From the NCBI RefSeq assembly GCF_026240095.1, contig NZ_JAPIVG010000001.1, positions 186,001 through 250,000 on the forward strand: 64,000 nt of DNA. Reading direction: 5' to 3'. The stretch comes from Pedobacter sandarakinus (GTDB taxonomy: Bacteria; Bacteroidota; Bacteroidia; Sphingobacteriales; Sphingobacteriaceae). Under the pieces are notes generated by a model. The model did no database searches. It saw nothing but the letters and a program-made list of their open reading frames with translations, and had not been told where the DNA came from. A program made the translations under genes and the position numbers. Below, one piece after another: positions 19,003 through 40,345 of this stretch (position 1 is the first letter of the stretch; every line of letters starts with the position of its first letter).

Positions 19003-19127
19003 AATAACGATACTTTTTTCATAACATTTTTGTTTTATACACATTTCGTTAGTGTACAAGAAATAAATTAGCGCAGTAACATGCTGGAAAACAAACGCTT
19101 CATCTTCAAAATGAAATATTTCAATTG

Positions 19128-19799: not shown

Positions 19800-19808
19800 G
19801 ATTAGTTG

Positions 19809-20853: not shown

Positions 20854-21822
20854 TTAGTAGGTAATTGCTGGAAAGTCTGATTTAGCTTTAATAAGCATCG
20901 GTATCCAATCGGCTCCTTTTTCGTCTTTTGGGCCAAATGCCGTTAATGCAAGCTGTGTTAAATCAGCATTTGCAGCACCGCTCCAGAAATGAATGAATTC
21001 GCCAAAATTCATTTTACGGGTATATTGTTGGTAGGTTTTGCCCTGTACAGTAATTTGTTGTTTAGGGAAATGCTGGGCTAAGCTTGTGAAAAAGTTATTC
21101 AGCACTTTTGTTCTGCCATAATTATCGTAAATGGGTAGAAACCAATTCTTAAACCATTGCGTTCCTGCCCGTGGATAGCTGTCACTGGTAGTCATCATTT
21201 TGTTATACCACCGCTGCGCATCAGCAGACCTGTTTAGGCCTAAATACACATCGTACTGGTAGATCTCCATCCACTTACTATCATGCCAGATATCGAAAGC
21301 AGGCGATTCTTTCACACCTTTTGAAGCGCCTTCAACAATGTGACCGATCTCATGAGTTGATAGATCAATATCATTATCGGTACCATTGATCCAAGCATCT
21401 AAGCTACTTGCCCCACAATCGGTCACATTTCTAAAATCGTGTGCCCCATCAAGGTAAGTACCTGGATGACCTCCACTATACTTTCCGGCATGATAAATTA
21501 CGAAGAGTCTGCTGTCATCGCCAAACTTACCATAGGTTTTTTTGGTATAATTCCAGGCTTCAGCCATATAGGTTTTTGGCCATGCTATTGTCGGTTTTAC
21601 ATCTCCGTCGTAATAAACCACAACACTAGTGTCGTAATAAACCCGGTTTACCAATTGTATATGTTCAAACCAATGTTCTTTCCAAGTTTTTGGGGGAGCG
21701 TTTGGCGGGTCGACACTTTCTACAATCGGAGGAGCAGGCTTAATAATTTCTTGCTCTTTTTCACTATTACAAGAACAAATTGCAGAGATGAAAAGCGCTG
21801 CAATGAAAAAGGTTTTTTTCAT
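20854..21822 (-). CDS. Lipoprotein zincin with HEIGH motif
   Basis: 322 aa. A short signal with a lipobox-like end (SAICSC, Cys16 or 18) predicts a lipid-anchored surface or periplasmic protein. HEIGH at 157-161 in IDLSTHEIGHIVEG is a zincin active site. DIWHDSKWMEIYQYDVY downstream may supply the third ligand. Large aromatic-rich segments (WFEHIQLVNRVYYDTS, WFKNWFLPIYDNYGR) are unlike the BSP copies, though size and neighbourhood suggest a related peptidase role. The family is not recognised with certainty. It starts 19 nt after the SusCD terminator hairpin and leads the unit that continues into the BSP genes. Confidence 0.65.
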   Translation of the reverse strand: MKKTFFIAALFISAICSCNSEKEQEIIKPAPPIVESVDPPNAPPKTWKEHWFEHIQLVNRVYYDTSVVVYYDGDVKPTIAWPKTYMAEAWNYTKKTYGKFGDDSRLFVIYHAGKYSGGHPGTYLDGAHDFRNVTDCGASSLDAWINGTDNDIDLSTHEIGHIVEGASKGVKESPAFDIWHDSKWMEIYQYDVYLGLNRSADAQRWYNKMMTTSDSYPRAGTQWFKNWFLPIYDNYGRTKVLNNFFTSLAQHFPKQQITVQGKTYQQYTRKMNFGEFIHFWSGAANADLTQLALTAFGPKDEKGADWIPMLIKAKSDFPAITY

Positions 21823-21872: not shown

Positions 21873-23705
21873 TTACCAACCTGTATTCTGTACAAGCAAA
21901 GGAACTTTTTGAATTTCATTATTCGGGATTGGCCATAAATAGTGCTTTTTCTGGAAAACTCTATTTTCTGTTAAAACAGGTGTGTAAAATCCTGGTGCAT
22001 TCTGTGTAATGTTTAAACCTCTAATTTGCGTATCGGTAGTTTCGGCAATCTTCCACTCTCTGGTGTAAAAATAACGATCTAACTCGAATGCCAATTCTAC
22101 GCGGCGTTCTCTACGAATTGCATCTTTCATGTCGGTAGGGATCGCAATCGCTCCTACCCCATTACCATAAGGCGCAATGCCTGCTCTTGCACGAATTCTA
22201 TTTAAATAGGTTAAGATATCTGGGTCTGATGGATTTGATTCTTGAAGCGCCTCGATGTAATCTAAATAAATTTCAGCGAGCCTAATTACTGTAAAAATTG
22301 GTCTCCCAGAGGTCCATCCGGCTACGGTTAAATGCTTTCTGGAGGTATAACCAGTTTTAGTATAATCGTTGTTTGCAATTGCAGCCTTCCCTGCATTTCC
22401 GGTATTGGTGAAATCGGTGATTATGTTCGATTGTGGATTAATCCATTTCCGACCAGTATACGTGATACTCGAATAAAATCGAGGTTCGCGATTTACGTAC
22501 ATATTGCTAATTGAACGGGGAGCGTTTTGATCGTTTGGATCTGGCGCTTGATAGCTAGAGGTACCATTGGCTGTGTAAGAAGGATCGTTTTCAATTGGCA
22601 AACCGTTCGCAGTAAAGAAAGCATCAACTAATTGTTGGGAAGGCGATAAGAATGAACCTCCTTTATCTCCACCAGAAGCACCGTTATGATTTGGTGCTAA
22701 CGAGTATTGATAAAAAGTTACATCACCACCTCTACCGAAAATAACTTCAGAATTCCAACCGCTTAAAAATACATCTCTCGTTGCAATAAATGCTCTATTA
22801 AATGCCGTATTAGGCAATCCTGAAGGTGTAGCTGCAACAGTATACAATGCATAACTGCTATAGTTTGGATTGGTTAGAAACGCTTTGGCGGCAGTTGCTA
22901 ACCTTGTCCATTTTGCAACGTTATATGTCTGGTTAATCAGCTGTTTACCGTCTGGATTCTTTAATGCAGCATAATCGGCATTTCCGTTAAACAACGGACG
23001 TGCTGCAGTAAGCAATGTTTTGATTTTATATGCGTCTGCTACCGATGCCGTAATATGACCGTAGTCTTCGTTTGCCTGAGGTGTTGCTGGGAGAGCGGCA
23101 GCTGCACTAGTAAGCTCGCTAACGATATAATCTACGCATTCATCCATCGAATTACGTGGCTTACTAATGGCTTCAAGGGGTGCGTCTGACTGGATTGGAT
23201 CGTTACCCAGTAGAACGACAGGTCCATATTGCCTAATCAAATGGTAATAATAGATTGCCCTTAATGCCTTGGCTTCATTAAAATAACGGTTTACAATGTC
23301 GATTCCGCCAATGTTGCAATCCTGGCATCTACTAACATTAGCCATAAATGTGCTCGCTGCCTGAATACCGCGATAATAGAATTGCCAATGGTAATTTACT
23401 TCTCCACTTGTTGGATCCCATGCGCCTGTATTGATGTTTTGGGTAAAGTTTGGCAGCGTGTAATCCGCCTCATCAGAAGCTGCTGTCCAGGGACCACTAT
23501 TTCCAAGCCCGCTTGCACTCCTATCAAAGTTCTGATTTGGAAGGGTAGAATAAACATTAGCTAAAGCCTGATCTACAGTATTTTTTCTTTGATACTGTTG
23601 CTCGAAGGTTAGTCTATCGTCGGGAACTTGATTTAAAAATTTCTTGCAGCCGTAATTACCTAGTAATAGCAATGCACCAACTGTATATACAAATATTTTT
23701 TTCAT
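21873..23705 (-). CDS. SusD/RagB nutrient-binding lipoprotein, pair 1
   Basis: 610 aa. The lipobox NYGC (Cys20) is followed by KKFLNQVPDDRLT, the usual SusD mature N-terminus. TPR-like helices and the C-terminal TLNRIRARAGIAP, IRRERRVELAFELDRYFYTREWKIAET and HYLWPIPNNEIQKVP are SusD/RagB signatures. It forms the lid over the SusC transporter ending 11 nt upstream and binds glycans at the cell surface. Context (GH92, ROK kinase, shared operators) suggests mannose-containing glycans. Linkage preference cannot be read from the sequence. Confidence 0.94.
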   Translation of the reverse strand: MKKIFVYTVGALLLLGNYGCKKFLNQVPDDRLTFEQQYQRKNTVDQALANVYSTLPNQNFDRSASGLGNSGPWTAASDEADYTLPNFTQNINTGAWDPTSGEVNYHWQFYYRGIQAASTFMANVSRCQDCNIGGIDIVNRYFNEAKALRAIYYYHLIRQYGPVVLLGNDPIQSDAPLEAISKPRNSMDECVDYIVSELTSAAAALPATPQANEDYGHITASVADAYKIKTLLTAARPLFNGNADYAALKNPDGKQLINQTYNVAKWTRLATAAKAFLTNPNYSSYALYTVAATPSGLPNTAFNRAFIATRDVFLSGWNSEVIFGRGGDVTFYQYSLAPNHNGASGGDKGGSFLSPSQQLVDAFFTANGLPIENDPSYTANGTSSYQAPDPNDQNAPRSISNMYVNREPRFYSSITYTGRKWINPQSNIITDFTNTGNAGKAAIANNDYTKTGYTSRKHLTVAGWTSGRPIFTVIRLAEIYLDYIEALQESNPSDPDILTYLNRIRARAGIAPYGNGVGAIAIPTDMKDAIRRERRVELAFELDRYFYTREWKIAETTDTQIRGLNITQNAPGFYTPVLTENRVFQKKHYLWPIPNNEIQKVPLLVQNTGW

Positions 23706-23715
23706 CCTTTTAAAT

Positions 23716-26700
23716 TTAGAAATTAGCTGTTAGACCTAAAGAGTAGTTAGAGGTTAATGGGTACCTGGTACCGTTATTTGTGTTCAACTCTGGATCCCAA
23801 AGCTTAAATTTACTGATGGTAAACACGTTGTAGCCCATTCCATAAATTCTTAAGCGTTTGATTCCTAATTTTTTGATACCTTCTTTTAAGGTATAGCCCA
23901 AATCAGCATTTTTTAGTCTCAAGAAGCTGATGTCGCGTAACCACCATGTACTAGCCTGATAGTTATTATTATTGGTACCACCGTAAGATAAACGAGGATA
24001 AACAGCATCTTGACGTGGGTTTGTTGGAGTCCAACGGTCGGCAGCAACTGCCAATGCATTACCCAAACCACCAGAATTTGCAAATGATGGAATGTTCATG
24101 ATGATGTCTGCATTGTCCTGGCCCTGGAAGAACAACCCGAAATCGAAGTTTTTATAGGTTAATGAAAACCCAAATCCATAAGTCGTACTTGGTAGATCTC
24201 CCCTTCCAATTATAGTTCTGTCGAATGAGTCGATTTTGCCATCACCATTTAAATCTTTGTATTTTATATCACCCGGCATTAACGTTCCAAATTGAGTTGG
24301 GCTTGAATTAATTTCAGCTTGGCTTTCGAAGAGCTTCTCTGCAATGTATCCCACACGAGTGGAAGCCAATACATTAAAGCCACGTTGCTCCATCCAAGGG
24401 TAAGCCTGCGGTGCCTGGTCGTTCTCAATAACTTTGTCTTTATTAAACGTAACGTTTGCTCTTAAGTTTAAAGACCAATCTTTGCCTAATTGAGCATCGT
24501 ACTGGATCGTTCCATCAATACCTTTATTTTCTACAACACCTAAATTGCCAATGGGTGTATTAGCCAAGCCTATATAATTTGGTACTGTACCTCTGGAAAT
24601 AAACTGATTTTTCCTACGCTCTTGAAAGAAATCGACAATTAAGGAAAGATTATTGTTCAGGGTTTTCAACTCAAAACCTAAATCTTGTTTACGTGTTTCT
24701 GCCCATGTTACATCTACTCCATATGCGGTTACACCTAATCCTGAATTAGAAATATTTCCATTCTGACCAAATGTATAGCCATCTGCCGTGCCCACCTTTG
24801 TAAGGTAATAGAAACGTTCACTTTCGTTTCCAACATATCCGCCGCCACTTCCACCACTACCAACAATACCATCCGAATAGCGTAGTTTTACCATTTGAAT
24901 AGCATTTTTTAACGGCTCGAAGAATTTCTCATTTGATACCAGCCATCCAACACCGAATGCCGGGAAAAAGCCGTAACGTTTATCTGGTGCAAAGTTCTCT
25001 GAACCGTTATAACCTACGTTTGCCTCAAAAAAGTACTTATTATCGTAAGCATAAGTTGCACGACTGGCTATACCTTGTAAACGATATGGGAGAGACAGCG
25101 TTAAGTTTCCTGCAAATGGTGTTGTATTATCATTTTGATTATATAATAATAAACCAGTTACGGCGTGTTTACCAAACGTACGGTTGTAGTTAATTGCGGC
25201 TTCCAAATATATTTTCTTATCGCCACCATTGCCAATACCATAGTTTAAGAACTCCTGGCCCTGCAAAATTAGACCATACTTGTATCCTGATGCTGGATCT
25301 CCAGGCACGATATACGGATCATTTGGATTTATTCTGTATAAGCTTTCTCTTTTTGTTCTGTTAACTGAACTATTAGTATTAACATCAAAGGAGAACATTG
25401 TGGTAGCTGATAAGCCAGGTGTAACTTCCTTTAAATCTTGCGTTAAACGAATGTTAGAATATAGCTGTGTACTGTATCCTACCCGATATCCATTTCGGGT
25501 TACGTCTCCGTATGGGTTTCGTTGGTCGGCCTGAGGACTAATGCCTGGCAAACTTCCGTTAGGATATAAAATTGGAAAAGATGTTGGGTTAATTAAGAAA
25601 GCTTGATTGAAAATATCTTGTGCCAATAAATTACTAGGGTATCTCGTTTGACCCAAGATTCCTTTTATACCTAAATCCAACTTGGTGGTCCCTGTAATAT
25701 CCCAATTTAAATTTGCACTCACATTATAGCGCTCGAAATTCTGCTTCGCAGCATCATTTACGGCTTCATCGGTTTTGAACAGACCATCTTCGCCATAATA
25801 ACCCAAGGAAACATAATATTTAGCATTACTCACGCCACCAGATAAGTTTGCCGTTACTGATCTGTTTCTTCCAAAATCATTGTAAATGGCATCAAACCAG
25901 TTCACGTTTGGATAAAGAATGGGATCAGCTCCAGCCGCAGTTTTCTGGATAGCATCAATAGAATATGCTGGTGTAAATGCACCGGCAGCACCAGACCGTA
26001 AATAATCAGAATACTTTGCCTCATTGGCTAAGTTCATATAATCTACCCCATCAATTAAGTCTGGTTTTTTTGTAAATCGGCTTATGCCTTCATAATACTC
26101 TACGTTTATACGAGGTGTTCCAATCTTACCTTGCTTGGTATTAATTAAGATTACGCCGTTCGCCCCACGAATACCATATACTGCGGTTGCAGCTGCATCC
26201 TTTAGCACTGTAAAATTTTCAACGTCATATACGCTAATATCATTAAGGTTACGATTGGGAACACCATCAATAATTACCAGCGGACCCCTATCGTTTGCCG
26301 TTAAAGATGATACCCCACGAATAAAAATGTCTGAACCAGTTGCACCTGGCTCGCCATTTCTAGAAACGTTCACCACTCCGGGAATACGACCAGCCAGTAA
26401 TTGGCTCATGCTCGAAACAGGCTGCCTAAGCTCATCTGCTTTAACTGATGATTGTGCACCAACCAAACTCTCTTTTTTTTGTGTACCGAAACCAACAATT
26501 GCAACTTCTTGTAGATCGGAGCCTGTAGTTTCTTTTAATTTAATATCTAATACCGTTTGAGTACCAACAGTTATTTCCTGTGTTTCATACCCTACATAGG
26601 TAATAATTAAAACTGCATTTTGATCTGGAACAGAAATGGTAAATGCTCCGTTAACGTCTGCAGCTGCACTTGTTGAGCTTCCTTTTACTTTTACGCCAGC

Positions 26701-26916
26701 ACCAGGTAACGGTAAGCCTCCCTGGTCTTTTATTATACCACGAATAACGATATCAGCTTTGTTTGGTTTAGCTACTACAGAACTGTTGATATTAATAACG
26801 GTAGCATTAACCGCAATAGAAACACCACAATTTAGCGCAATTGCCGTAGCAAGTACCTTAAATGTGCCGCCTTTTACGAGCCTGCCCTTGGTTATATTTG
26901 TAAATTTTTTCATCAT
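23716..26916 (-). CDS. SusC/RagA TonB-dependent glycan importer, pair 1
   Basis: 1066 aa. The signal region runs to about residue 38. A carboxypeptidase-regulatory-like domain (VIRGIIKDQGGLPLPGAGVKVKG) and the SusC-type plug follow (EVAIVGFGTQKKESLVGAQSSV, SQLLAGRIPGVV, DIFIRGVSSL, LVIIDGVPNRNL, VLKDAAATAVYGIRGANGVI), then the barrel ending SLGLTANF. It imports oligosaccharides across the outer membrane with TonB energy. The gene lies 86 nt downstream of the discoidin lipoprotein and overlaps the same unit as SusD. The two operators at 28142 and 28218 lie upstream of the first gene. Confidence 0.95.
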   Translation of the reverse strand: MMKKFTNITKGRLVKGGTFKVLATAIALNCGVSIAVNATVININSSVVAKPNKADIVIRGIIKDQGGLPLPGAGVKVKGSSTSAAADVNGAFTISVPDQNAVLIITYVGYETQEITVGTQTVLDIKLKETTGSDLQEVAIVGFGTQKKESLVGAQSSVKADELRQPVSSMSQLLAGRIPGVVNVSRNGEPGATGSDIFIRGVSSLTANDRGPLVIIDGVPNRNLNDISVYDVENFTVLKDAAATAVYGIRGANGVILINTKQGKIGTPRINVEYYEGISRFTKKPDLIDGVDYMNLANEAKYSDYLRSGAAGAFTPAYSIDAIQKTAAGADPILYPNVNWFDAIYNDFGRNRSVTANLSGGVSNAKYYVSLGYYGEDGLFKTDEAVNDAAKQNFERYNVSANLNWDITGTTKLDLGIKGILGQTRYPSNLLAQDIFNQAFLINPTSFPILYPNGSLPGISPQADQRNPYGDVTRNGYRVGYSTQLYSNIRLTQDLKEVTPGLSATTMFSFDVNTNSSVNRTKRESLYRINPNDPYIVPGDPASGYKYGLILQGQEFLNYGIGNGGDKKIYLEAAINYNRTFGKHAVTGLLLYNQNDNTTPFAGNLTLSLPYRLQGIASRATYAYDNKYFFEANVGYNGSENFAPDKRYGFFPAFGVGWLVSNEKFFEPLKNAIQMVKLRYSDGIVGSGGSGGGYVGNESERFYYLTKVGTADGYTFGQNGNISNSGLGVTAYGVDVTWAETRKQDLGFELKTLNNNLSLIVDFFQERRKNQFISRGTVPNYIGLANTPIGNLGVVENKGIDGTIQYDAQLGKDWSLNLRANVTFNKDKVIENDQAPQAYPWMEQRGFNVLASTRVGYIAEKLFESQAEINSSPTQFGTLMPGDIKYKDLNGDGKIDSFDRTIIGRGDLPSTTYGFGFSLTYKNFDFGLFFQGQDNADIIMNIPSFANSGGLGNALAVAADRWTPTNPRQDAVYPRLSYGGTNNNNYQASTWWLRDISFLRLKNADLGYTLKEGIKKLGIKRLRIYGMGYNVFTISKFKLWDPELNTNNGTRYPLTSNYSLGLTANF

Positions 26917-28500: not shown

Positions 28501-29376
28501 TTAGATTAAAGTTACATCGCAACAGCTGGCAGCACCTATTAAAGTAGCGTGTTCTTTCAATTCAGAGATTTTTATGGTCGCCTGGATATCATTTCCTTTA
28601 AGCGTTGCTTTTAATTCTGGTGCAAAGGCATCAAAAGCCTGCGAAATATTTCCACCGACAATAACAGAATCGATTTTGTTTGCATTGATAATCGGAATCA
28701 AAAACTGAGCAAGATTATATCCAAATTCCATAAACACTCGGGTAGAATGATAGTCTGTATCAACCAGCGCCACGAGTTCTTTCACACCAGGAACCTCTTT
28801 ATTTGTGAGTTGTTTGTATCTCTTTACAAACCAACGTGTAGATAAATAATCTTCTGCTATTCCATCCAAAAATGATGAGTTCCACAAATCGGCGTCTATG
28901 GCTTTATATTTTAAACAAATTGAAGAGCCTAATCCGGTCCCCAGTGTTAAACCAAGTACATTTAAATTACCTTTTGCTGCACCCGCAAATACTTCGCCTT
29001 GTAAAAACCCGGCTGCATCATTTATAAAATGGATTTGTTCTAGTGGAATATCCAGTCGATTTGATAATTCTTCCTTAATATTGATATTGTATAATGCCTG
29101 AAATTTGTCTTGATCCTTAATTAGGGAAACTCCCTCTTCATAATCAAATGGTCCGGGCATAGCCACTCCTAAGCTCCTTTCACCATTTTTTATACCTTTA
29201 AACGCTTGGCTAATAATATCACACCATGCCCCTAGAATTTCCTCTTTACCCTCTTGCGAGTTCACAGGCATACGCCTTATCGAATCATTAATTAACGTTC
29301 TAGTATCTAAATCTACCAATGCGGCCGTAATATGCGAACCACCAATATCTACACCCAATGCTACAGGCTTTTCCAT
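28501..29376 (-). CDS. ROK-family sugar kinase lacking the CxCG zinc motif
   Basis: 291 aa, cytoplasmic. The ATP/phosphate motif is GVDIGGSHITAALVD; the substrate-site region is FINDAAGFLQGEVFAGAAKG, with the catalytic Asp in NDAAG; the second nucleotide motif is GLTLGTGLGSSICL, and VIVGGNIS lies near the C-terminus. The typical ROK zinc-binding GHxxxxxCxCGxxGC segment is absent, as in a divergent group of Bacteroidota ROK kinases. It probably phosphorylates a hexose from the pathway, with mannose the natural guess from the neighbouring GH92 (58 nt upstream). It is the last gene of a three-gene unit under the operator at 34161. Confidence 0.85.
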   Translation of the reverse strand: MEKPVALGVDIGGSHITAALVDLDTRTLINDSIRRMPVNSQEGKEEILGAWCDIISQAFKGIKNGERSLGVAMPGPFDYEEGVSLIKDQDKFQALYNINIKEELSNRLDIPLEQIHFINDAAGFLQGEVFAGAAKGNLNVLGLTLGTGLGSSICLKYKAIDADLWNSSFLDGIAEDYLSTRWFVKRYKQLTNKEVPGVKELVALVDTDYHSTRVFMEFGYNLAQFLIPIINANKIDSVIVGGNISQAFDAFAPELKATLKGNDIQATIKISELKEHATLIGAASCCDVTLI

Positions 29377-29433: not shown

Positions 29434-31701
29434 TTATTTACTGAGCGAAAATGGCTTATCCGTAACTGCAATGCCTCTGGTAGTCGATGGTTTGCTGCTC
29501 ATCGTTAATTTCAATGTACCTCCATTAATCAAATCCTGATGTGTAATGAAGTTACGTGTATATGTTGTACCGTTTAAACTGGCTCCGGCGATGTACACAT
29601 TTGTTGCATTGTTGTCTTCAGCATCGATAATAAACTTCTTTCCATTTTCTAAATTAATAGTGGTTTTTTTAAACATCGGACTCCCTAAAACATATTCACC
29701 TGTGCCTGGCGTAACGCTATAGAAACCTAGCGCACTTAATACATACCATGATGAGGTTTGTCCTTGGTCTTCATCTCCCGGATAGCCATTTTCTGTTGCG
29801 TTATATAATTTTTGCATTACTTCGCGGGCATGGTATTGGGCCTTCCACGGTTGGTTTGCATAGTTATAGAGGTACACCATATGTTGGATGGGTTGATTGC
29901 CGTGAGCGTACTGACCCATGTTAGCCATTACCATCTCAGTCATTTCATGAATCATTCCGCCATAGGTACCCACATTAACCTTGTTGGGCTGTGAAAATAC
30001 CGAGTCGAGCTTGGCCGTAAAATTTTCATTACCGCCCATCATATTAATCAATCCTTTTGTGTCTTGAAAAACCGACCATTGCCAATGCCATGCGTTTCCC
30101 TCGGTAAATGGTCCACCCCATTCTGTAGGATCAAACTTTGGTGCCCACTGTCCGTTAACATCCTTACCACGCATAAAACGCGTAGCCGGATCGTATACAT
30201 TTCTGTAGTTGTACATCTGGCGTTCGAAGATATCCATATAGTATTTGTTGCCTATGGCTTTTGCAAGTTCGTAACCACAATAGTCATCGTAAGCATATTC
30301 TAGTGTTTTTGCAGTGGCCTCTCTGTATTTAGGATAAGGCACATATCCCAACTGATAATACTCCCGCCAGCCGTCTCTTCCATTTGCAGGCCCCCAAGGC
30401 CCCTTATTTGTAGCCTCATGTAAGTATGCATCTAACGCCTTTTTTGGATCAAAAGTACGCAGGCCCTTTGCCCAAGCGTCGGCAAAAAGAGAAATGGCGT
30501 GGTTGCCAATCATACTCCCGGCCTCACTAGGGAAAGACCAGGAAGGTAACCAACCGCACTGATCATAAGCATCTAACATTGCTTGCATATAGCGGCCATG
30601 CATTTCAGGCTGGATCAGTGTATTCAAGGGAAATTGTGCCCTAAAAGTATCCCAAAAGCCAGTATCTGTATACATATAACCGGCATGAACAGTTCCGTCG
30701 TAAGGGCTAAAGTAATATGGCTTACCATCTGGCCCTATCTCATAAAATTTCCTAGAAAATAAGCTAGCCCTAAAAAAGCAAGAATAAAAGGTTTCTGTAT
30801 CTTCTTTTGTACCGCCTTCTACCAGAATTTTGCCCAATGACTTGTTCCAAACTGCAGCAGCTTTAGCTTTTGTTTGTTCTAAAGATTTATCGCTTCCAAG
30901 TTCATTTTTTAGATTTAATTCTGCTTGGACTAAACTGATGTATGATGATGCTGTTTTAACTTGTACCGTTGCACCATTTTTAAATTCAAGGTAAGCCCCT
31001 TTTCCAAATCCATCAGCCATTAAAGAATCTGGTTTGATGGTGTTTTTCTTGTTCTCCCACGTACCGTAAGCTTTAAAAGGCTGATCAAATTGCAGCACAA
31101 AATAGCTTTTCCAACCTTTTTTAAACCCCTCCCCGTTATTAACGTAACCAGTAATTTTATTTTCTTTAGGATAGATTTGCACACCACTTAAACGCGTATA
31201 TCCATCTAAAATTAAATAGCTTTTCTTTCCCTTTGGATAAGAAAATCTTAAATGGGCACCTCTTTCAGATGGGGAAATCTCTGTGCTGATATCATTGTCT
31301 AACCTAACCTTGTAGTAATTCGGTTTGGCAATTTCGTTGGCATGGCTAAACTTGGCTTCACGCCTGTTTTCGTCTACTACAAGCTCATCAACCATTGGCA
31401 TTAATGAAAAAACGGCATAATCCCTGGTCCACGAACTGCACTGATGTGCTTGCTGAAAGCCCCTTATTTTATCTTTGCTGTATTGGTATTTCCATCCATC
31501 GCCATTCCGACCGGTTTGTGGCGTCCAGGTATGCATACCAAAGGGTAAGGCGGTTGTTGGATAAGTGTTTCCTCTAGTTAATTCGTGTTTGGAATTAGTT
31601 CCCTGGAGGGTGTTTACATAATTGACCAAGTCTTTCTGCTGCGCCATTAACCCATTGGCAGCCAGGCAGAATAAAATGGTAGTGACTAATTTTGGTTTCA
31701 T
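29434..31701 (-). CDS. GH92 alpha-mannosidase 2, predicted exo-alpha-1,2
   Basis: 755 aa with a signal peptide ending about GLMAQ. Motifs include YTDTGFWDTFRAQFP, GWLPSWSFPSE, FTEGNAWHWQW and GYPGDEDQGQTSSWYVLSALGFYSVTP. Residue mapping by spacing gives general acid Glu534, base pair Asp643/Asp645 and the alpha-1,2 His585-Glu586, each exactly one number above BT3990. It also carries GNQP (601-604), as its paralogue at 15924 does. It should act in the periplasm on imported manno-oligosaccharides, feeding the ROK kinase downstream. It starts 28 nt after the unknown 723-aa gene. Confidence 0.93.
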   Translation of the reverse strand: MKPKLVTTILFCLAANGLMAQQKDLVNYVNTLQGTNSKHELTRGNTYPTTALPFGMHTWTPQTGRNGDGWKYQYSKDKIRGFQQAHQCSSWTRDYAVFSLMPMVDELVVDENRREAKFSHANEIAKPNYYKVRLDNDISTEISPSERGAHLRFSYPKGKKSYLILDGYTRLSGVQIYPKENKITGYVNNGEGFKKGWKSYFVLQFDQPFKAYGTWENKKNTIKPDSLMADGFGKGAYLEFKNGATVQVKTASSYISLVQAELNLKNELGSDKSLEQTKAKAAAVWNKSLGKILVEGGTKEDTETFYSCFFRASLFSRKFYEIGPDGKPYYFSPYDGTVHAGYMYTDTGFWDTFRAQFPLNTLIQPEMHGRYMQAMLDAYDQCGWLPSWSFPSEAGSMIGNHAISLFADAWAKGLRTFDPKKALDAYLHEATNKGPWGPANGRDGWREYYQLGYVPYPKYREATAKTLEYAYDDYCGYELAKAIGNKYYMDIFERQMYNYRNVYDPATRFMRGKDVNGQWAPKFDPTEWGGPFTEGNAWHWQWSVFQDTKGLINMMGGNENFTAKLDSVFSQPNKVNVGTYGGMIHEMTEMVMANMGQYAHGNQPIQHMVYLYNYANQPWKAQYHAREVMQKLYNATENGYPGDEDQGQTSSWYVLSALGFYSVTPGTGEYVLGSPMFKKTTINLENGKKFIIDAEDNNATNVYIAGASLNGTTYTRNFITHQDLINGGTLKLTMSSKPSTTRGIAVTDKPFSLSK

Positions 31702-31729: not shown

Positions 31730-33901
31730 CTACCAAGCGATTTTGACTGTTACACCTTCGCTGGAATTCTCAAAACCGAGTAAAAGGGTTTTAGACTCGT
31801 CATCCCACTCATTTCTCGATAATTCTAACTCCTTGGAACCTAGCGCAGCAGTTATTAATGTTGGCTTTGCAGGCAGTAAAATTCTCATTATGTTTTTAGT
31901 GTTGACAGGACTTTTGGCTATAAATTGATAGGAGCTAGATCCAAATTCCTCATCGGTTACCCTGGCGGCCGCCGCTAAAACCTGTGGCTTTTTACTTTTA
32001 ACAGCCTGTACATCGTAAAGGTAAGCCTGGGCATTAGGCGCTATAACCTTGCTTTTCAATATTGGAAGTTGAGGATCGAATAAGTCGATATATGTACCGC
32101 TTAGTGTTAATGGCGATTTGCTTTTGCCTTCATCCAATACCGCAGCAATAACAAATGGACCCCGCCGTAAAACAAAGTTGTTCTTAAGAATAAGGTCGCC
32201 CGCCTTTGCATCTTTCTCATAAGCTTGGGCAATTAGCGCTAGAAATTGCTGATCTCCATTATCGGACATAATTAATTCTTTCGGGTCGGTTCTTACCACA
32301 TATACCCTACCTTTACCGACAGCATTTCCAATTAAATTCTCGTCTGTAGGTATTCCTAACAATTTAAAAAGATGCGCTGATGGCGCAGCGAATTTATTAT
32401 TTCCGGTATTCCACCACTCTTTAACATTTTGGAATGGATCGGTATCTTTTCCATAATAAAGCAATACACCACCATTTTTAACCCATTTTGCCAATTCCTC
32501 ATGAAATGAGGAAGATAGGGGTTTCATATTCGAATAGCTCATAATTAACACTTTGATGTCTTTCAAAGTATTTTTATTTGCCAGGTTTTCAATGTGAACC
32601 GTTTCAATGGGTATACCTTGCTTAAGCAGTGGAATGGCCATACCGTAAAAATTAGATAACTGTGGATCACTGTAGCCCGCATGCGTTGGGAAACGTTGAA
32701 ACATCATGGAGTTAGACAATAACACGCCTATACCCCGACTACCGTTTAGGTGATTGTCTGATTTGGGCATCTGGTTTAAGGAGTTAACCATTACCTGCAT
32801 TTGGGTAGCATAGTCTGGTGAAATTGGCTGCTTTTCCTTCAGCCCTTCAACTGGAAATTTACCATTATAAATTCGATTTGGCCAGGGCATCACTTCATAG
32901 TTATCTACCATGGGATATAACAATTCGGCGGTAAATGTGGCCTGGTAGTTGACCTTATAGTCATCCCAAGATCTGCTTCGGTCTTCAATCGGATCGGTTA
33001 AAAAATAAATCTTTCTTCCGGTAGGAGCCGTCATCGAAACCATAGAACCATATTCCAAGAAAGCATTTTCAAAAACACGCTCTTTTTTTATACCATTATA
33101 AAAGATTGGCTCTCTTGCCGTACCTGTCCAAACTTGGGCAATGTACCCATCCATTCCCTTTAAATTTGCCAAACTTGCCTCAGGGCTTACAATTTGCCAG
33201 GATGAGTAGTTGATTAACGAATGAGTTGGCACAAAACATTTTACCCGTGTACCTTTACTTTCGCTATAAGATTTTACATAACTAAAAACCTCTTTTAAAG
33301 CATTGAAATAAAGCTGATATTTTAGTTTGGAAGAAAGGTAGGTAGCCTCGGGCGACTCATGTTGAGCCATCCAGGGGAAACCATAAAATTTCTGCCATTC
33401 ATCTTTAAAAGTTTGGCTATACCCTGCACGAGCCCAAAATTCTGGTTCTTCTAAATAAATTGCGGTTACGCCTGCATCTATCGCCCTTTTAACATGGCCT
33501 TTCATATACTCAAGGAAACTTGAGGTGGGTACAATATAGGGTACGTTCTTACCATGCCAGATGGTTTCTCCATTTTGCATCATCTGCCCTTCTCCGAGGT
33601 GATTTTTTCCATCCCAATCTCCAAGAAAATAATCCTGATACTGGCCCCAGGCAATACCAGTCATGAATTGAACTTCGTAACCTTTATCTTTATATCCTCT
33701 TATACGATCCTCGAAACTTCCACCATCGTTTATACCATACACCATGGCAATATCGGCCCGTACATCATAATTAGCACTCCATGGGGCTGCAACCTGAAAT
33801 GAGGTTTTCTGTTTTGACTTTGTTTGAGCGAAGCTACCTAGCGCAGAAATACAAGCCAATGCCAAAAGCATAAAAAAACCATAATTGCCCTGTTTATTCA
33901 T
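31730..33901 (-). CDS. Secreted TIM-barrel-like protein, candidate new glycoside hydrolase
   Basis: 723 aa with a signal peptide (to about LGSFAQ). I do not recognise the family. Residues about 45-380 look like a (beta/alpha)8 barrel: DIAMVYGIND, TAIYLEEPEFWARAGYS with acids at 151, 152 and 154, YVKSYSESKGTRVKCFVPTH, GMDGYIAQVWTGTAREP, KIYFLTDPIED and VDNYEVMPWPNRIY. Residues about 400-560 resemble the GATase-like trimerisation domain of GH42-type enzymes (IKVLIMSYSNMKPL, LAKWVKNGGVLLYYGKDTDPF), followed by a beta-rich tail. The order barrel, GATase-like, beta recalls GH42 and GH164. In this locus a beta-mannosidase-like activity is a hypothesis only. It is first in the unit with GH92-2 and ROK. 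Confidence 0.6.
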   Translation of the reverse strand: MNKQGNYGFFMLLALACISALGSFAQTKSKQKTSFQVAAPWSANYDVRADIAMVYGINDGGSFEDRIRGYKDKGYEVQFMTGIAWGQYQDYFLGDWDGKNHLGEGQMMQNGETIWHGKNVPYIVPTSSFLEYMKGHVKRAIDAGVTAIYLEEPEFWARAGYSQTFKDEWQKFYGFPWMAQHESPEATYLSSKLKYQLYFNALKEVFSYVKSYSESKGTRVKCFVPTHSLINYSSWQIVSPEASLANLKGMDGYIAQVWTGTAREPIFYNGIKKERVFENAFLEYGSMVSMTAPTGRKIYFLTDPIEDRSRSWDDYKVNYQATFTAELLYPMVDNYEVMPWPNRIYNGKFPVEGLKEKQPISPDYATQMQVMVNSLNQMPKSDNHLNGSRGIGVLLSNSMMFQRFPTHAGYSDPQLSNFYGMAIPLLKQGIPIETVHIENLANKNTLKDIKVLIMSYSNMKPLSSSFHEELAKWVKNGGVLLYYGKDTDPFQNVKEWWNTGNNKFAAPSAHLFKLLGIPTDENLIGNAVGKGRVYVVRTDPKELIMSDNGDQQFLALIAQAYEKDAKAGDLILKNNFVLRRGPFVIAAVLDEGKSKSPLTLSGTYIDLFDPQLPILKSKVIAPNAQAYLYDVQAVKSKKPQVLAAAARVTDEEFGSSSYQFIAKSPVNTKNIMRILLPAKPTLITAALGSKELELSRNEWDDESKTLLLGFENSSEGVTVKIAW

Positions 33902-34246: not shown

Positions 34247-35248
34247 CTACCTTTCGATTAACTTGGTGGGGATAATAACTCGGTTAGATTCGTTTTTTGT
34301 TTTGGAAGATAACTGACTTAAAATTAATCTGATAACGGTTTCGGCAATTTCTTCAAGGGGTTGCTGAACTGCCGAGATACCTGGGGTATGAAGTTCGAAG
34401 ACTTCATGATCATCATAAGCTATGACAGCCAACTCATCCCCTATTTTTTTGTTAATCAGTTTTAGTACCTTGAGTCCGCTTATTGCAAGATAATTGGTCG
34501 CAAATAATACGGCGTCGGTATCAGTAGAAGTAAACAGTTTTTTAATTTGCGCAATGGTTTCATCCTCATTTTGGTTAAAATGAATCTTAACAATCAACTC
34601 CTCATCAAATGGGATATGATGATCTTCTAGTGCTTTCTTATATCCATCTAAACGCTCAGTAATCTGTTGAACATCGATATCAGTGGTAACTAATGATATT
34701 CTCTTTTTTCCCTTTTTGATAAAACTTTCGATAGACTGATATGAGGCATTAAAGTGATCTGCACCAACGTAGTTTGTATCTACCGTTGGCAAGTTTCTGT
34801 CGAACAGAATTACCGGTTTATCATCACTCAAAAGTTGCTGAATATCATCTTCAATTCCTTTTATTGGCGAGATGATGTAGCCATCTACTTTCCTGGATTT
34901 GAACATATTGATAAGCTCTTTTGCCTTATCTACACTGTTTTCGGTACTTGAATAAATAATTTTATAACCTTTTCTATACGCTTTATCTTCAATTAACCTG
35001 GCAATACGAGAAAAGAAAGAGTTTGAAATGTCTTCTATAATTAAACCTATGATATTAGAATTACCTGTTCTTAAACTTCGTGCAATCTGATTAGGTTTAT
35101 ATCCGCTCTCTTGAATTATTTTTTCTACGTTTTTGATAACCGCTTCACTAATAGATTTCTCTTTGGCTTTACCATTAATGATAAAAGATACGGTTGTGAT
35201 AGATACGCCTGCCTGTAAGGCGATATCTTTAATAGAGAGAGATTTCAT
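34247..35248 (-). CDS. LacI/GalR-family transcription regulator of the mannan region
   Basis: 333 aa. The N-terminal helix-turn-helix is IKDIALQAGVSITTVSFIINGK (about 5-26), with Phe where many family members have Arg after TVS. The hinge region PNQIARSLRTGNSN carries the Leu that typically inserts into a central CpG. The periplasmic-binding-like effector domain runs from about 60 (IIGLIIEDISNSFFSRI, VDGYIISPIKGI, DAVLFATNYLAISGLKVL, VIAYDDHEVFELHTPGISAVQQP). The operators found nearby all have a central CG, fitting this family. The effector is likely a sugar or sugar phosphate from the pathway. A weaker operator precedes the gene, suggesting autoregulation. Confidence 0.93.
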   Translation of the reverse strand: MKSLSIKDIALQAGVSITTVSFIINGKAKEKSISEAVIKNVEKIIQESGYKPNQIARSLRTGNSNIIGLIIEDISNSFFSRIARLIEDKAYRKGYKIIYSSTENSVDKAKELINMFKSRKVDGYIISPIKGIEDDIQQLLSDDKPVILFDRNLPTVDTNYVGADHFNASYQSIESFIKKGKKRISLVTTDIDVQQITERLDGYKKALEDHHIPFDEELIVKIHFNQNEDETIAQIKKLFTSTDTDAVLFATNYLAISGLKVLKLINKKIGDELAVIAYDDHEVFELHTPGISAVQQPLEEIAETVIRLILSQLSSKTKNESNRVIIPTKLIER

Positions 35249-35419: not shown

Positions 35420-37057
35420 TTAGTAACCAGGATTTTGTTTCAAATTTGAATTTAATGCAATTTGTTGTTGCGGAATCGGATAAAGTTGCCTGATCGCGTT
35501 GGTTGGTTGGTGATCCCACCATGATCCGGTAGCGAACTTTCCGAAACGAATTAAATCATCGCGACGGAAACCTTCGAAGATAAACTCTCTTCCTCTTTCA
35601 ATTAATAGCTCATTCAGGTTTAGGGTGGCAGTTGTATAAGGAGTCCAGTTTGCTGGCGCAAATGCACGTACTTTACAATCATTGATCAGCTGTACGGCTT
35701 CTGCGGTAGCTGCACCACCATTTTTACGCATTAATGCTTCTGCTTTTGCAAAATAGATCCAGGTAAGTCGATAAATGTTCCAGTCGGTGTTATTGTATAC
35801 TAAACTTGGCGGCGTAGTTGCATTACCAACTTGATTACCTAATTTGTATTTGTTAAAACGAACGCCACTATTCTCTTCACCTTCACTCATATTAGATACT
35901 GTAGAACCGATTTTATTTTTTTGAATGTTATCTACAAACTCCAATTGTTTCCCATCATACTCATTTCCTCCGGTTGCGATCAACGGCTGTCCGTTATCGA
36001 AACGGAACATCTTACCTTCTAATAGCCAAGTCCTCTTTCTCAGGTCGGTATCAACATAAGTGGTAAAATTGCCTGGCACGACAACAATTCCGTCGTTTCC
36101 GTTTCTACTTCCGCCATAAATGAATTGCTGGTTAAAGTGGTAAAAATCGCTCGGAAAGCCCGGTTGGAAATTTGCTCGCTGAAATTCGTATGCTACCGAA
36201 AATATAGATTCTTTACTTAAATCGTTGTCTGGTTTAAATTGATCTGTGATGTTAGGGTCTAACTGCATGTTTCCGTTTAAACCACCTGCTTGGTTGGTAA
36301 TTAACTTATCTGCCGCCGCAATACAGTCGTCCCACCGTGCTGTTCCGGTCCAAACCTCTGCATTTAAATAAAGTTCTACTAACATCGCGTATCCTCCTGC
36401 CTGGCTCATTCTGCCCAACATCGATTTAGATAATTTTGGAGCCTTTTCTATGTTGTCTTTAATTTCTTTTTCTATAAAATTAAAAACTTCCTGGCGGCTA
36501 AGTGTCGATGGTCTTGCTGGTTCCCCAACAACCGTAACCACAGGGATATTTCCAAACAAATCCATCAGTTTTAAATAATGATAAGCTCTGAACAACTTCA
36601 GCTCTGCGATGAAAGCATCTTTTTCCTGTTGTGTTATACCTAGCTGTGCCGCATCTCTTTTTTCAAGATTCTCAATCGGCACGTTACACAAGCCAACACC
36701 CCAGTACATTAAAGACCATGCATTGTTTATACCGCCTTCATCAACTGTCCAGGTGTGATAGTGTAAACGTTTCCATTTCCCTCCATCCTCACCATGTCTT
36801 CCTTTAGTTGGCCAAGCCAATTGGTCGCCAGATAGTTCGGCCAATCGCCACCAACCATCTTGCCCTGATGATGTTCCCCATGCATTAGCATGGGTATAAG
36901 GCCTTAATACCGCGGAGATAATTTCATTCTTATTTTGATAAAAACTATCACTGCTAATCGTGTCATACAAGTTTTCATCGAGTTTCGTACAACCATTAGC
37001 TGTAATTAGCATCATAGCTGCTAAGCACGAAGTATATATTTTATTTATCGTTTTCAT
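35420..37057 (-). CDS. SusD/RagB nutrient-binding lipoprotein, pair 2
   Basis: 545 aa from the ATG at 37057 (MKTINKIYTSCLAAM). The ATG at 37078 would overlap SusC and extend beyond the signal peptide. The lipobox ITANGC precedes TKLDENLYDTISSDSFYQN. SusD features include AELKLFRAYHYLKLMDLFGNIPVVT, YRLTWIYFAKAEALMRK, LNELLIERGREFIFEGFRRDDLIRFGKF and RQLYPIPQQQIALN. It is the surface glycan-binding partner of the SusC ending 10 nt upstream. The unit is bounded by the operator at 40346 and the terminator at 35381. Confidence 0.94.
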   Translation of the reverse strand: MKTINKIYTSCLAAMMLITANGCTKLDENLYDTISSDSFYQNKNEIISAVLRPYTHANAWGTSSGQDGWWRLAELSGDQLAWPTKGRHGEDGGKWKRLHYHTWTVDEGGINNAWSLMYWGVGLCNVPIENLEKRDAAQLGITQQEKDAFIAELKLFRAYHYLKLMDLFGNIPVVTVVGEPARPSTLSRQEVFNFIEKEIKDNIEKAPKLSKSMLGRMSQAGGYAMLVELYLNAEVWTGTARWDDCIAAADKLITNQAGGLNGNMQLDPNITDQFKPDNDLSKESIFSVAYEFQRANFQPGFPSDFYHFNQQFIYGGSRNGNDGIVVVPGNFTTYVDTDLRKRTWLLEGKMFRFDNGQPLIATGGNEYDGKQLEFVDNIQKNKIGSTVSNMSEGEENSGVRFNKYKLGNQVGNATTPPSLVYNNTDWNIYRLTWIYFAKAEALMRKNGGAATAEAVQLINDCKVRAFAPANWTPYTTATLNLNELLIERGREFIFEGFRRDDLIRFGKFATGSWWDHQPTNAIRQLYPIPQQQIALNSNLKQNPGY

Positions 37058-37067
37058 ATAATTGTTT

Positions 37068-40000
37068 CTAAAATCCAAAACTAACCCCTAATAAAAATGA
37101 AGATGTACTTGGATAAGGTCCTCTACCGTCTACGCCCAAAACCCCATCGTTTGCTGCTTGACCTAATCCTGTATCTTTAACAAAATCAGGATCATTTCCT
37201 GTGTATTTAGTAAAGGTTGCCAGGTTCTGACCAGTGATGTACGCTCTTAGATTGCGAACGTTTTTCGATTTTAATTTAAAAGTATATCCAAACGTTACCT
37301 CATCAATTTTTAAGAAACTACCATCTTCGATATAATAGTCTGAATACATGTAGGTATCATTGATCTGAGCATATTTATCAAAAGCAGAACTTAACAGATT
37401 AGTACCAGACACTTTGTTTCCGTAAGATAGCGCGGTTGTATTCAGGATTTGATAATCAAACTTTCCTCTTAAGAATACCCTTAAATCAAATTGCTTATAA
37501 TTAAAGCTGTTGGTTAGCGACAAGTAATATTTAGGAATTGCGTTTCCGATGATTGCTAAATCAGTTTGGTCTCTAAAGAATGAATTATTGATTTGATCAT
37601 TTCTAATTGGCTGACCGTTTCTGTTGAAGAATAGCCATTTACCATCGCCAGTAAAGCCAGCAAAGCGTTTACCCCAGAAATCGCCTATATTTCCACCTTC
37701 ATAAATTCTAATGGCATTTCCTAAGTCTCCAAAACCGCCAATTGGCGCTGTAGATAGATAATCCCTTTTGTATTCGCTATTAGAATAAGAATCTAATTTA
37801 TTACTGGTAGTACTCGCAGCTAAGTCGATATTATATTGGAAATCCTTTCCTTTAACAGCTTGATAGCTTAATGCCAATTCGATACCTTTTGCAGATATAG
37901 ACCCCACGTTGGTGTAAATCTGACTTCTTACGAAAGGTGGCTGAGGAGAGTCATAATTATCTAACAAATCTTTTGTAACACGTTTAAATAAATCTAATGA
38001 TCCAGAAAGGCGATTAGATAAAAGTGAGAAGTCTAAACCTAGGTTAATCTCTTGTTTTTTCTCCCACCTTAAGTTTGGATTTGGATTGGTATTAGGCCCA
38101 TAAGTTTCCCTATATTGTCCATCAGGATATAAATAAACACCACCTGTACCCAATGTAACTAACGATGCATAATTAGAGATTCCTGAGTTACCTGTTTCAC
38201 CATATCCAATTCTCACTTTCAAGTTATTTACCCACTTTACATTTTCCATAAATTTCTCTTCGGTTACGGTCCAACCTGCAGAAACTGCCGGGAAGTTTGC
38301 CCATTTGTTGTTGACACCGAAACGCGAAGATCCCTCTCTACGTAAAATTGCCTGTAAGTAATATCGGTTTTTAAAGGTATAGTTTACCCTTCCGAAGAAA
38401 GCGATCAAAGTATTATCATTTTTGAAACTTCCTAGAAATGCTTTACCAGCTGAAAGCTGATTTCCTGCATTTAAATTGTTTTCCTGGAACTGATCATTAA
38501 GAAAACCTAAGTTTCCGGCATTGAAACCTTCATTTACTTCGTAGCGATAACTATATCCAGCAATACCTGTTAAACTATGGTCTTCACCAAAAGTTGTAGA
38601 ATATTGTAATGTAGGTTCCACATTGTAGTTCTGCTCTAAAACTGTCGAGCGTGCGGCATATCCACCATTCTTATAGATATCGTTTTCTACTGAATATTCA
38701 CCGAAAATAGATCTGTAAGAACCATCGATATAACTGTTTCTCTGAACGGCACCAAAGATGGAAGCTTTTAAACCTTTATAAAGTTCATACTCAACTTTTG
38801 CATCGATAGAGCTTGTTTGTTGTTGTCTTTTATTGGTTTCTTGCTCCAATCTGGCAATTTCATTTGTAGCGTTCGGATCAAAAAAGTATGAACCATCTGG
38901 ATTATAATAAGACTGCGTTGGGTTTCGTGTCAATTGGTTTTCCCAACCGCCACCACCTAATAAGTCACCTTTGTTAAAGTTTGTAGATAGATTTACCTGC
39001 GTAAATAACTTATCATCCAAACCTCTGGAATTTAGATTAAGCCTGATTCCGTATTCAGTTCGGCGGTTGTTTTTTGCAAAACCCTGCAAATCCCGGTAAT
39101 TGATACTGGCCCTGTAACTTGTTTTGTCTGAGCCGCCAGACATCGAAAGGTTATGGTTTTGACTAAAGTTCTGGTGATTAACCAAATCATCAAAGGGATC
39201 AAGGGAAGCGCCATAATCTTGTCTATCAAATTGTCCTGATTGAATCTTTTCTCTAAACTCATCAACAGTTAAAAAATCTGGCCTCCTGTACAAGTATTCT
39301 TTACGCACATACGCTGAATAATCAAAGCGGGCCGGACCAGCCTTACCCTTTTTTGTTGTTACTAAAATTACCCCAGCGTTTGCTCTTGTACCATAAATCG
39401 CAGCACCAGATCCATCTTTTAAAACGCTGAAAGAGGCAATATCGTCTTGTTGCAATAAATCTAGGTTACCGCCAGGTATTCCATCTATTACAATTAAAGG
39501 GCTTTGACTACCTGTTACTGAGGTAACGCCACGTAACTGGATACCAACACCAGAGTTGGGATTTGACCCTCCTGTTCGGGTAATTTGCAAGCCCGCCACC
39601 TTACCTTGCAATAAATCGAGGGGATTGCGAGACCCACTTTGTCTAAATTGTGAGGTATCTACAGTTGCTATTGCTGAAGTTACTTCCTTAGCCTTTAACG
39701 TTCCATAACCAACAACTACCACCTCATCTAGTTTCTGAGCGCCTGATGGTACCAGGTTAACCGTTAAGGGTGTAGCGCCATTTCCTGCCGGAACAGACTT
39801 TTGTTGATAGCCAATGTAGCTGAAAACTAGGATATCGGTTGGAGCTGTTACAGCAATGCTAAAACTGCCGTTCTCTTGCGTTACGGTTCCACCTGTTTTA
39901 CCTTGGATTTTGATTCCAACGCCTGGAAGGCCGAGTTTTTTTTCATCCAATACCACACCTTTTATGGTATTTTGTGTTGAGGTACCTGTTGCAGACGTAG

Positions 40001-40247
40001 CAGGAGCATTTGCCGGGGGCGCAGCAGGTACAGGACTTGAGCCACCTAGCGGGTTCACCGGAACTTTAACCGAATCGGCTGGCGTTGCTACCGGTACTTT
40101 CTTGGTAGTGTCTCTTTTGGTAGTGTCTTGCTGAAAATAGTAATGATTGAAACCCGCGGTTTCTCTCATTGATTTAGCAAACAACTGGGAGTTTGAAATT
40201 AGGATTAGGCATAGGAAGGCCGCGATCCTGGGTAGAATGTTTCTCAT
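37068..40247 (-). CDS. SusC/RagA TonB-dependent glycan importer, pair 2, with Pro/Ala-rich linker
   Basis: 1059 aa from the ATG at 40247 (MRNILPRIAAFLCLI); a GTG 6 nt earlier is a weaker start. Between the signal peptide and the carboxypeptidase-like domain lies a low-complexity linker of about 65 residues rich in Thr/Lys, then Pro/Ala (DTTKRDTTKKVP, PVPAAPPANAPATSA), unusual for SusC. It is followed by NTIKGVVLDEKKLGLPGVGIKIQG and the plug (EVVVVGYGTLKAKEVTSAIA, LQLRGVTSV-type segment, LIVIDGIPGGNL, VLKDGSGAAIYGTRANAGVI). The barrel ends FLLGVSFGF. It is under the operator at 40346. Confidence 0.94.
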   Translation of the reverse strand: MRNILPRIAAFLCLILISNSQLFAKSMRETAGFNHYYFQQDTTKRDTTKKVPVATPADSVKVPVNPLGGSSPVPAAPPANAPATSATGTSTQNTIKGVVLDEKKLGLPGVGIKIQGKTGGTVTQENGSFSIAVTAPTDILVFSYIGYQQKSVPAGNGATPLTVNLVPSGAQKLDEVVVVGYGTLKAKEVTSAIATVDTSQFRQSGSRNPLDLLQGKVAGLQITRTGGSNPNSGVGIQLRGVTSVTGSQSPLIVIDGIPGGNLDLLQQDDIASFSVLKDGSGAAIYGTRANAGVILVTTKKGKAGPARFDYSAYVRKEYLYRRPDFLTVDEFREKIQSGQFDRQDYGASLDPFDDLVNHQNFSQNHNLSMSGGSDKTSYRASINYRDLQGFAKNNRRTEYGIRLNLNSRGLDDKLFTQVNLSTNFNKGDLLGGGGWENQLTRNPTQSYYNPDGSYFFDPNATNEIARLEQETNKRQQQTSSIDAKVEYELYKGLKASIFGAVQRNSYIDGSYRSIFGEYSVENDIYKNGGYAARSTVLEQNYNVEPTLQYSTTFGEDHSLTGIAGYSYRYEVNEGFNAGNLGFLNDQFQENNLNAGNQLSAGKAFLGSFKNDNTLIAFFGRVNYTFKNRYYLQAILRREGSSRFGVNNKWANFPAVSAGWTVTEEKFMENVKWVNNLKVRIGYGETGNSGISNYASLVTLGTGGVYLYPDGQYRETYGPNTNPNPNLRWEKKQEINLGLDFSLLSNRLSGSLDLFKRVTKDLLDNYDSPQPPFVRSQIYTNVGSISAKGIELALSYQAVKGKDFQYNIDLAASTTSNKLDSYSNSEYKRDYLSTAPIGGFGDLGNAIRIYEGGNIGDFWGKRFAGFTGDGKWLFFNRNGQPIRNDQINNSFFRDQTDLAIIGNAIPKYYLSLTNSFNYKQFDLRVFLRGKFDYQILNTTALSYGNKVSGTNLLSSAFDKYAQINDTYMYSDYYIEDGSFLKIDEVTFGYTFKLKSKNVRNLRAYITGQNLATFTKYTGNDPDFVKDTGLGQAANDGVLGVDGRGPYPSTSSFLLGVSFGF

Positions 40248-40345
40248 TGGCACTCATTAGTTTAGTTTATAATTAGTTACGCAATGCGACTAATGTTTCG
40301 CTTAATTAAAGAGGCGTAGAAATTAATTAGGGACGAACAGCAGTA

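Follow-up and report, generated by a model that had tools for sequence, protein, structure and literature searches.

A predicted GH42/GH164-like fold with its own invariant acids marks a candidate family of secreted glycoside hydrolases in Bacteroidota

Glycoside hydrolases of family GH42 combine a barrel, a trimerisation domain and a beta domain, and their catalytic set consists of an Asn-Glu pair on barrel strand 4 and a Glu on strand 7. GH164 has a three-domain fold as well, and for its beta-mannosidase Bs164 a published study (PMC7105311) names Glu160 as the acid/base and Glu297 as the nucleophile. The inverting phosphorylases of GH112 have a related fold, and their catalytic site overlays that of GH42 according to a review (PMC8106489). 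At the level of gene clusters, GH76, GH92 and GH125 make up the alpha-mannan loci that have been studied, and Salegentibacter Hel_I_6 has an alpha-mannan-inducible locus whose most similar counterpart lies in S. salinarum (PMC9213526).

Here we analysed a 723-residue protein encoded by Pedobacter sandarakinus. The window, that is, the whole stretch of DNA analysed, comprises 64,000 nucleotides and contains the following genes of interest:

15924..18212, minus strand: second GH92 gene of the wider locus
21873..26916, minus strand: second SusD/SusC pair of the wider locus
28501..29376, minus strand: ROK family protein (sugar kinase type), 57 bases past GH92-2
29434..31701, minus strand: GH92 exo-alpha-mannosidase family protein (GH92-2), 28 bases downstream of the gene for the 723-residue protein
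31730..33901, minus strand: ORF encoding the 723-residue protein, ATG start, with a signal peptide, a predicted GH42-like three-domain fold and an extra C-terminal beta part
34247..35248, minus strand: LacI-type regulator, upstream, 345 bases from the gene for the 723-residue protein
35420..37078, minus strand: SusD-like protein, upstream
37068..40253, minus strand: SusC-like TonB-dependent transporter, upstream

The original prediction had described a secreted protein of 723 residues at 31730-33901 that leads a unit with GH92-2 and the ROK gene. Coordinates and length proved correct, with an ATG start on the minus strand; GH92-2 follows after 28 bases and the ROK gene 57 bases after GH92-2. 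Export is suggested by an N-terminal signal peptide, which is of type I by eye, and the N-termini of orthologues look mostly like type I signal peptides, a few of them with a lipobox-like Cys (by eye). Elsewhere in the wider locus, three successive look-alike genes occupy 18258-20789 on the minus strand. The third matches a basic secretory peptidase family and the other two look similar to it by eye; together they may hint at a glycoprotein substrate. The gene at 20854-21822 (minus strand) encodes a protein of 322 aa that Pfam does not match at 1e-3 and that shows, by eye, a zinc-peptidase-like HEIGH motif; it has relatives in two of the loci compared below (L038 and L049).

With an alignment as input, AlphaFold2 produced a confident model of the protein (pLDDT 92.3, pTM 0.91), compared with a pLDDT of 36 for a single-sequence prediction. 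The parts of the protein are as follows:

33815..33901, minus strand: signal peptide region, residues 1-29 (approximate), by eye from a hydrophobic stretch, low pLDDT and orthologue N-termini
32852..33814, minus strand: predicted (beta/alpha)8 barrel, about residues 30-350, from DSSP of the model
33437..33451, minus strand: EEPEF, residues 151-155, with Glu152 as the proposed general acid and Glu151 at the place of GH164 Asn159, from conservation and motif
32981..32995, minus strand: DPIED, residues 303-307, with Asp303 at the GH164 nucleophile position, from motif, strand and conservation
32207..32737, minus strand: predicted GATase/trimerisation-like alpha/beta domain, about residues 389-565, from the model, structural alignments and an hhalign match to a GH42-type set at 418-485
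31733..31984, minus strand: extra C-terminal beta part, about residues 640-723, from the model

By our own DSSP assignment, barrel strands 1-4 comprise residues 51-55, 76-82, 115-117 (with bridges to 123) and 147-151, strands 5-8 comprise residues 221-226, 252-258, 297-303 and 335-336, and beta strands run from about residue 565 to the end of the protein. Thus, the layout that had been proposed, a TIM-barrel-like part and a GATase-like domain, is confidently predicted: the suggested check by structure prediction returned a model with a (beta/alpha)8 barrel and a GATase-like part at about 389-565, and this model aligns with GH42 and GH164 structures.

Foldseek ranked GH42 enzymes and IaSGT, the beta-1,2-glucosyltransferase of Ignavibacterium album, on top, followed by a rhamnosidase, GH167, a carrageenase titled GH42 and GH112. 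The best match was the bifidobacterial beta-galactosidase 4uzs (E 4.7e-14). IaSGT shares the layout (E 1.0e-13 for 7vky) but is only 13% identical in the structural alignment and gives no sequence match. The GH167 structure 9whd and 6ptm (titled exo-carrageenase GH42) reached E 2.4e-10 and 1.1e-9, but with TM values of 0.42-0.47 and no sequence match, and GH112, with a related layout, reached E 3.7e-8, but with TM 0.37 and no profile match. VIA comparisons of the model gave Z 21.9 with 4uoq (527 residues, rmsd 4.2), Z 19.1 with IaSGT 7vkz (516 residues, rmsd 4.3) and Z 18.9 with GH164 6t75, whose three-domain fold the model matches (507 residues, rmsd 5.0). Z does not discriminate between families, because PgaB, Cwp19 and GH168 fucanases, which match mainly through the barrel, also score Z 19-21; full-length coverage favours a GH42-type layout of the model over these barrel matches. 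Alignments with GH42, GH164 and IaSGT span about residues 25-630, and the C-terminal 85 residues or so lie outside most of them. The three-domain layout and the Glu at the end of strand 4 are shared with 5xb7, 8ibr, 4uoq and 4uzs (Z up to 21.9); the first two are titled as GH42, and we take the other two to belong there as well.

Scanning genome contigs yielded 101 relatives, and we kept the 80 that most resemble the window protein. These 80 are 51-82% identical to it in the best segment and carry Bacteroidota titles throughout, save one metagenome-assembled genome (MAG) titled Phycisphaerae, whose copy falls within a Chitinophagaceae-rich group of the tree and may have been transferred or misbinned. 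The family is present in 4 of 395 sampled genomes of Bacteroidota, the own genome counted. When 26 carriers were searched at E<=5, 27 full-length matches scored 1161-1293 bits and all others at most 13.5 bits, one carrier having two copies; the family is real and compact. Outside Bacteroidota, a copy on a Paenibacillus plasmid is 41% identical to the window protein (41-43% across Paenibacillus). The phylum of the Phycisphaerae MAG was sampled with 199 genomes, and matches came from three of them: the MAG itself, a genome with planctomycete-like copies (G633) and a genome (G619) with a weak match of 19.6 bits. The G619 match covers 45 positions within the GATase-like part; its ORF of 682 aa resembles GH42 by eye and was excluded from family membership. 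G633 has three copies (722, 367 and 365 bits; 41%, 28% and 27% identity), the last two belonging to genes of roughly 1150 codons that lie side by side. Two adjacent distant homologues (L114, 6903-13853, minus strand) each have an N-terminal extension with repeat-like domains and dockerin-like segments by eye, and adjoin a protein with GH2-type domains. The phage records searched held no homologue, and a literature search with thin coverage of subscription journals and bioRxiv returned no description of such a family or its kin. Two alignments were used below: A1 contains 64 of the 80 relatives and the window protein, and A3 (23 rows) contains 18 of the 80, the window protein and four divergent homologues, namely the Paenibacillus copy and the three G633 copies (27-43% identical).

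Sequence libraries did not assign the protein. It had no credible match in Pfam and no match in NCBIfam, and a scan of 65 family members against Pfam at E<=1 gave no credible match and no PF02449. DUF4350, presumably a GATase-like family, matched 20 of these 65 weakly (best E 0.0017), ThuA some members weakly, and the GH42 trimerisation domain PF08532 (GH42M) a single one (E 0.14). Sequence and profile searches of PDB chains returned weak, unrelated matches only; at E<=10 they included neither GH164 chains nor GH167 chains, although 9whd is a fold match. A degenerate DNA pattern found no GH164 sequences in 149 genomes of one class, and GH164 was therefore compared by sequence through its PDB chains. 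In profile-profile comparison, hhalign gave a probability of 1.4 against five core GH42 proteins (0.2 with A3) and of 49 against four further PF02449 proteins, confined to residues 418-485 (29 with A3). Extended over the whole length, the A3 comparison scored no better and the GH42 barrel went undetected. The earlier alternative of a new glycoside hydrolase family or a distant GH164/GH42 relative is supported for the fold and for the idea of an unassigned family; membership of GH42 or GH164 is not supported, as the barrel gave neither a sequence nor a profile match.

Identical in 81 of 81 sequences are, among others, D46, D50, D97, E151, E152, E154, E241, E274, E278, E283, D303, E306, D307 and E336, and also W340; the acid cluster EEPEF (151-155) noted in the original prediction is thereby confirmed, E151, E152 and E154 being invariant. 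The 23-row alignment retains D50, E151, E152, D303, E306, D307, D488 and D606 together with W340 and R343, while E154, E274, E278 and E283 are changed in both homologues of 27-28% identity and E336 in one of the two. Besides Asp50, the invariant acids of the barrel are thus Glu151-Glu152 after strand 4 and Asp303, Glu306 and Asp307 after strand 7.

Published mutagenesis primers for Bs164 (PMC7105311), with the introduced Gln read as Glu, decode to VLIN-E160-PGT and WLMT-E297-LQG. The window protein has IYLE-E152-PEF at the end of model strand 4 and YFLT-D303-PIE at the end of strand 7. From motif and predicted strand we infer that Glu152 corresponds to Glu160, Asp303 to Glu297 and Glu151 to Asn159; since profile-profile comparison misses the GH42 barrel, this mapping draws on secondary structure and short motifs. 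By this match, two of the three GH164 signature residues would be changed, and of Asn159, Glu160 and Glu297 only the equivalent of Glu160 would be retained. In place of the two facing Glu that had been predicted, Asp303 would occupy the nucleophile position in all 81 sequences and the four divergent homologues. In clan GH-A, a strand-4 Glu serves as acid/base and a strand-7 Glu as nucleophile; by the predicted strands, the window protein would have a Glu and an Asp at these places. The acid pair is spaced 151 residues apart here; the figure is 137 for Bs164 and 157-158 for two GH42 enzymes. Given the same strand mapping, the GH42 set is absent, with Glu-Glu and Asp in 81 of 81: the core GH42 proteins examined have an NE motif at strand 4 whereas the window protein has Glu-Glu, and it differs further by the strand-7 Asp, the extra C-terminal beta part and a barrel without detectable sequence kinship, although the model matches the GH42 layout. 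Bs164 (6t75; PMC7105311) is alike in layout, in NEP versus EEP and LMTE versus FLTD, and in a similarly spaced Trp, but its Asn159 and Glu297 would be replaced by Glu151 and Asp303, and no profile match links the two.

These comparisons bear on a narrower version of the glycoside hydrolase reading, in which the protein would be a retaining, GH164-like beta-mannosidase acting on beta-mannosides of the N-glycan core or on fungal beta-1,2-mannose caps. In its favour, about 12 kb away in the window (46103-47140, minus strand), lies a GH130 gene close to beta-1,2-mannoside enzymes; its best solved relatives are the beta-1,2-mannoside synthase Uhgb_MS (E 1.5e-149) and Lin0857, which we take to be a beta-1,2-mannobiose phosphorylase. 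The architecture shared with the beta-mannosidase Bs164 points the same way, as do Trp340, 37 residues after Asp303, where Bs164 has Trp-336 39 residues after Glu-297 (PMC7105311), and a reported GH5 exo-beta-mannosidase with a GH42-type trimer (PMC8233224). Against it, the nucleophile position would hold Asp and Asn159 would be replaced by Glu, no counterpart of Bs164 Arg-73 and Arg-75 was identified in a comparison made without residue-by-residue alignment, and no PDB GH164 chain matched in sequence. This activity had been proposed earlier to fill a gap, on the claim that no beta-mannosidase or endo enzyme was recognisable nearby. However, the window has GH130, and two GH76 genes and one GH125 gene lie on another contig of the same genome, so the gap argument is weak. 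With half of the relatives' loci containing alpha-mannan enzymes and half lacking them, the gap-filling role is possible but unsupported, and we consider beta-mannosidase activity improbable.

The gene neighbourhoods of the 80 relatives were compared by phmmer with Pfam-checked representatives. GH92 lies on the same strand in 34 loci, GH76 in 25 and GH125 in 17; 40 of the 80 have any of the three, 25 have at least two, and 41 have SusC. None of the three lies on the same strand in the remaining 40 loci. Of all 80 loci, 21 fall short of 20 kb; among the 59 loci of at least 20 kb, 37 have a same-strand GH92, GH76 or GH125 and 22 do not. The same count by clustering gave 41 of 80 on either strand and 38 on the same strand (the label used on the tree); the phmmer figure of 40 was used. 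Because these 80 were selected out of 101 for their similarity to the window protein, the sample is weighted towards nearer, mannan-type loci. The density of GH76 genes, taken from 29 genomes (28 hand-chosen carriers and the own genome), predicts 0.6 of 80 loci, against 22 of 80 compared in this estimate, which ignores kinship and unequal locus lengths. The next ORF downstream is GH92 in 23 of the 80 loci and the preceding ORF is GH76 in 19. On the tree, a supported group unites the window protein with 18 further copies from Pedobacter and Mucilaginibacter, and all 19 are in loci with alpha-mannan enzymes; the mannan-locus label switches 9 times, against 28 in shuffles. Since the alpha-mannan loci studied so far are built from GH76, GH92 and GH125 (PMC9213526), the glycan of the window's group is most likely alpha-mannan.

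A link to the inducible locus of Hel_I_6 was considered and rejected. The family copy of S. salinarum is on contig C18, with a third, weaker GH76 about 20 kb from it, and the two strongest GH76 are on contig C21; the copy and the strongest GH76 being on different contigs, the Hel_I_6 locus gives no expression evidence for the family.

Two further protein groups accompany the family. Relatives of an 814-aa DUF4964/DUF5127/glutaminase A-like protein (L007, 1076-3523) occur in 24 of the 80 loci, and such a gene is absent in the window between the LacI gene and the gene for the 723-residue protein. A 703-aa protein without a Pfam match (L016, 12141-14252) lies downstream of the family in 4 of the 80 loci (also L015, L017 and L055).

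Other lineages have other neighbours. Two Niabella copies adjoin DUF2961 proteins, Ferruginibacter copies lie upstream of GH106, gut copies have GH43, phosphatase or glycosyltransferase genes as neighbours, and a number of rumen copies stand alone. Because several of the gut and rumen copies adjoin unrelated genes and the Niabella copies DUF2961, the substrate may not be mannan. In another version of the glycoside hydrolase reading, the enzyme may cleave a non-mannose decoration, such as a furanosyl group or another side chain on fungal mannan. The alpha-mannose bonds are already covered by GH92, GH76 and GH125, the DUF2961 proteins beside the Niabella copies are presumably GH172 furanosidases, and a same-strand GH43 occurs in 7 of the 80 loci. 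Six of these loci belong to Rufibacter or to gut Bacteroidales, two groups distant from each other. However, neighbours vary between lineages, and the sugar is suggested by gene context; we hold this version as a tentative possibility, at well under even odds.

The Paenibacillus homologue is set differently. It has no signal peptide by eye and lies 14 bases downstream of genes for an ABC sugar importer, namely a solute-binding protein gene and two permease genes, accompanied by a GntR/LacI-type regulator. Within this gene run the homologue is the sole recognisable sugar enzyme; a phytanoyl-CoA dioxygenase gene lies upstream of the regulator. Phosphorylases usually sit in the cytosol beside an ABC importer, and this apparently cytosolic copy, together with Foldseek matches to GH112 3wfz and 2zuw, would suit an inverting phosphorylase like GH112 that cleaves with phosphate and releases a sugar 1-phosphate. 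However, most Bacteroidota copies apparently have signal peptides (by eye) and would gain nothing from phosphorolysis outside the cytosol, PF09508 (GH112) is absent from 65 family members and the four divergent ones, and hhalign to one GH112 sequence found nothing, which makes a phosphorylase very unlikely. GH112 was also sought in 61 genomes of the own phylum and not found, the controls being equally silent. A further lead to GH112, through a 'DPVED' motif attributed to that family, was dropped: the GH112 sequence examined lacks the motif and does not align.

A non-catalytic glycan-binding protein that retains the barrel fold would explain why two of the three GH164 signature positions hold other residues. 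It would not explain why the replacing acids are themselves invariant, down to the Paenibacillus and G633 homologues, nor why the run around the Paenibacillus copy contains no further recognisable sugar enzyme, and we give this explanation little credence.

Taken together, the 723-residue protein is likely an enzyme, and we assign a probability of about 0.6 to its being a secreted glycoside hydrolase whose family is absent from the searched libraries, with a GH42/GH164-like build and a catalytic set of its own. The roles we propose on the model for Glu152, Asp303 and the other residues are fairly likely. Glu152, at the end of strand 4, would protonate the glycosidic oxygen, and Asp303, at the end of strand 7, would act as the nucleophile (retaining) or activate water (inverting); the latter is conceivable given that the Asp side chain is shorter by one methylene. 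Trp340, directly past strand 8, may stack on the sugar, and Glu151, replacing the usual Asn, may touch the sugar at the scissile bond. The counterpart of the GATase-like domain in GH42 and GH164 serves trimerisation there. The exported enzyme would act on oligosaccharides taken up through SusC/SusD. It would open a bond that is beyond the reach of GH92 and, in relatives, of GH76 and GH125 as well; the glycan would be of the alpha-mannan type and probably fungal. Judged by gene context, the distribution would fit a family used wherever one certain bond needs opening, with a cytosolic site of action in Paenibacillus and an extracytosolic one in most Bacteroidota. A bolder version, in which a new glycoside hydrolase family with a set outside the clan GH-A rule despite its GH42-like fold uses an inverting or unusual route to open a fungal alpha-mannan bond that no known family opens, seems to us rather unlikely.

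If they are enzymes, the 723-residue protein and its relatives would probably constitute a new family of glycoside hydrolases. They would show a known fold in which the usual catalytic residues have been replaced, and knowing their function could supply a step in how Bacteroidota of soil and gut digest the glycans of fungal cell walls.
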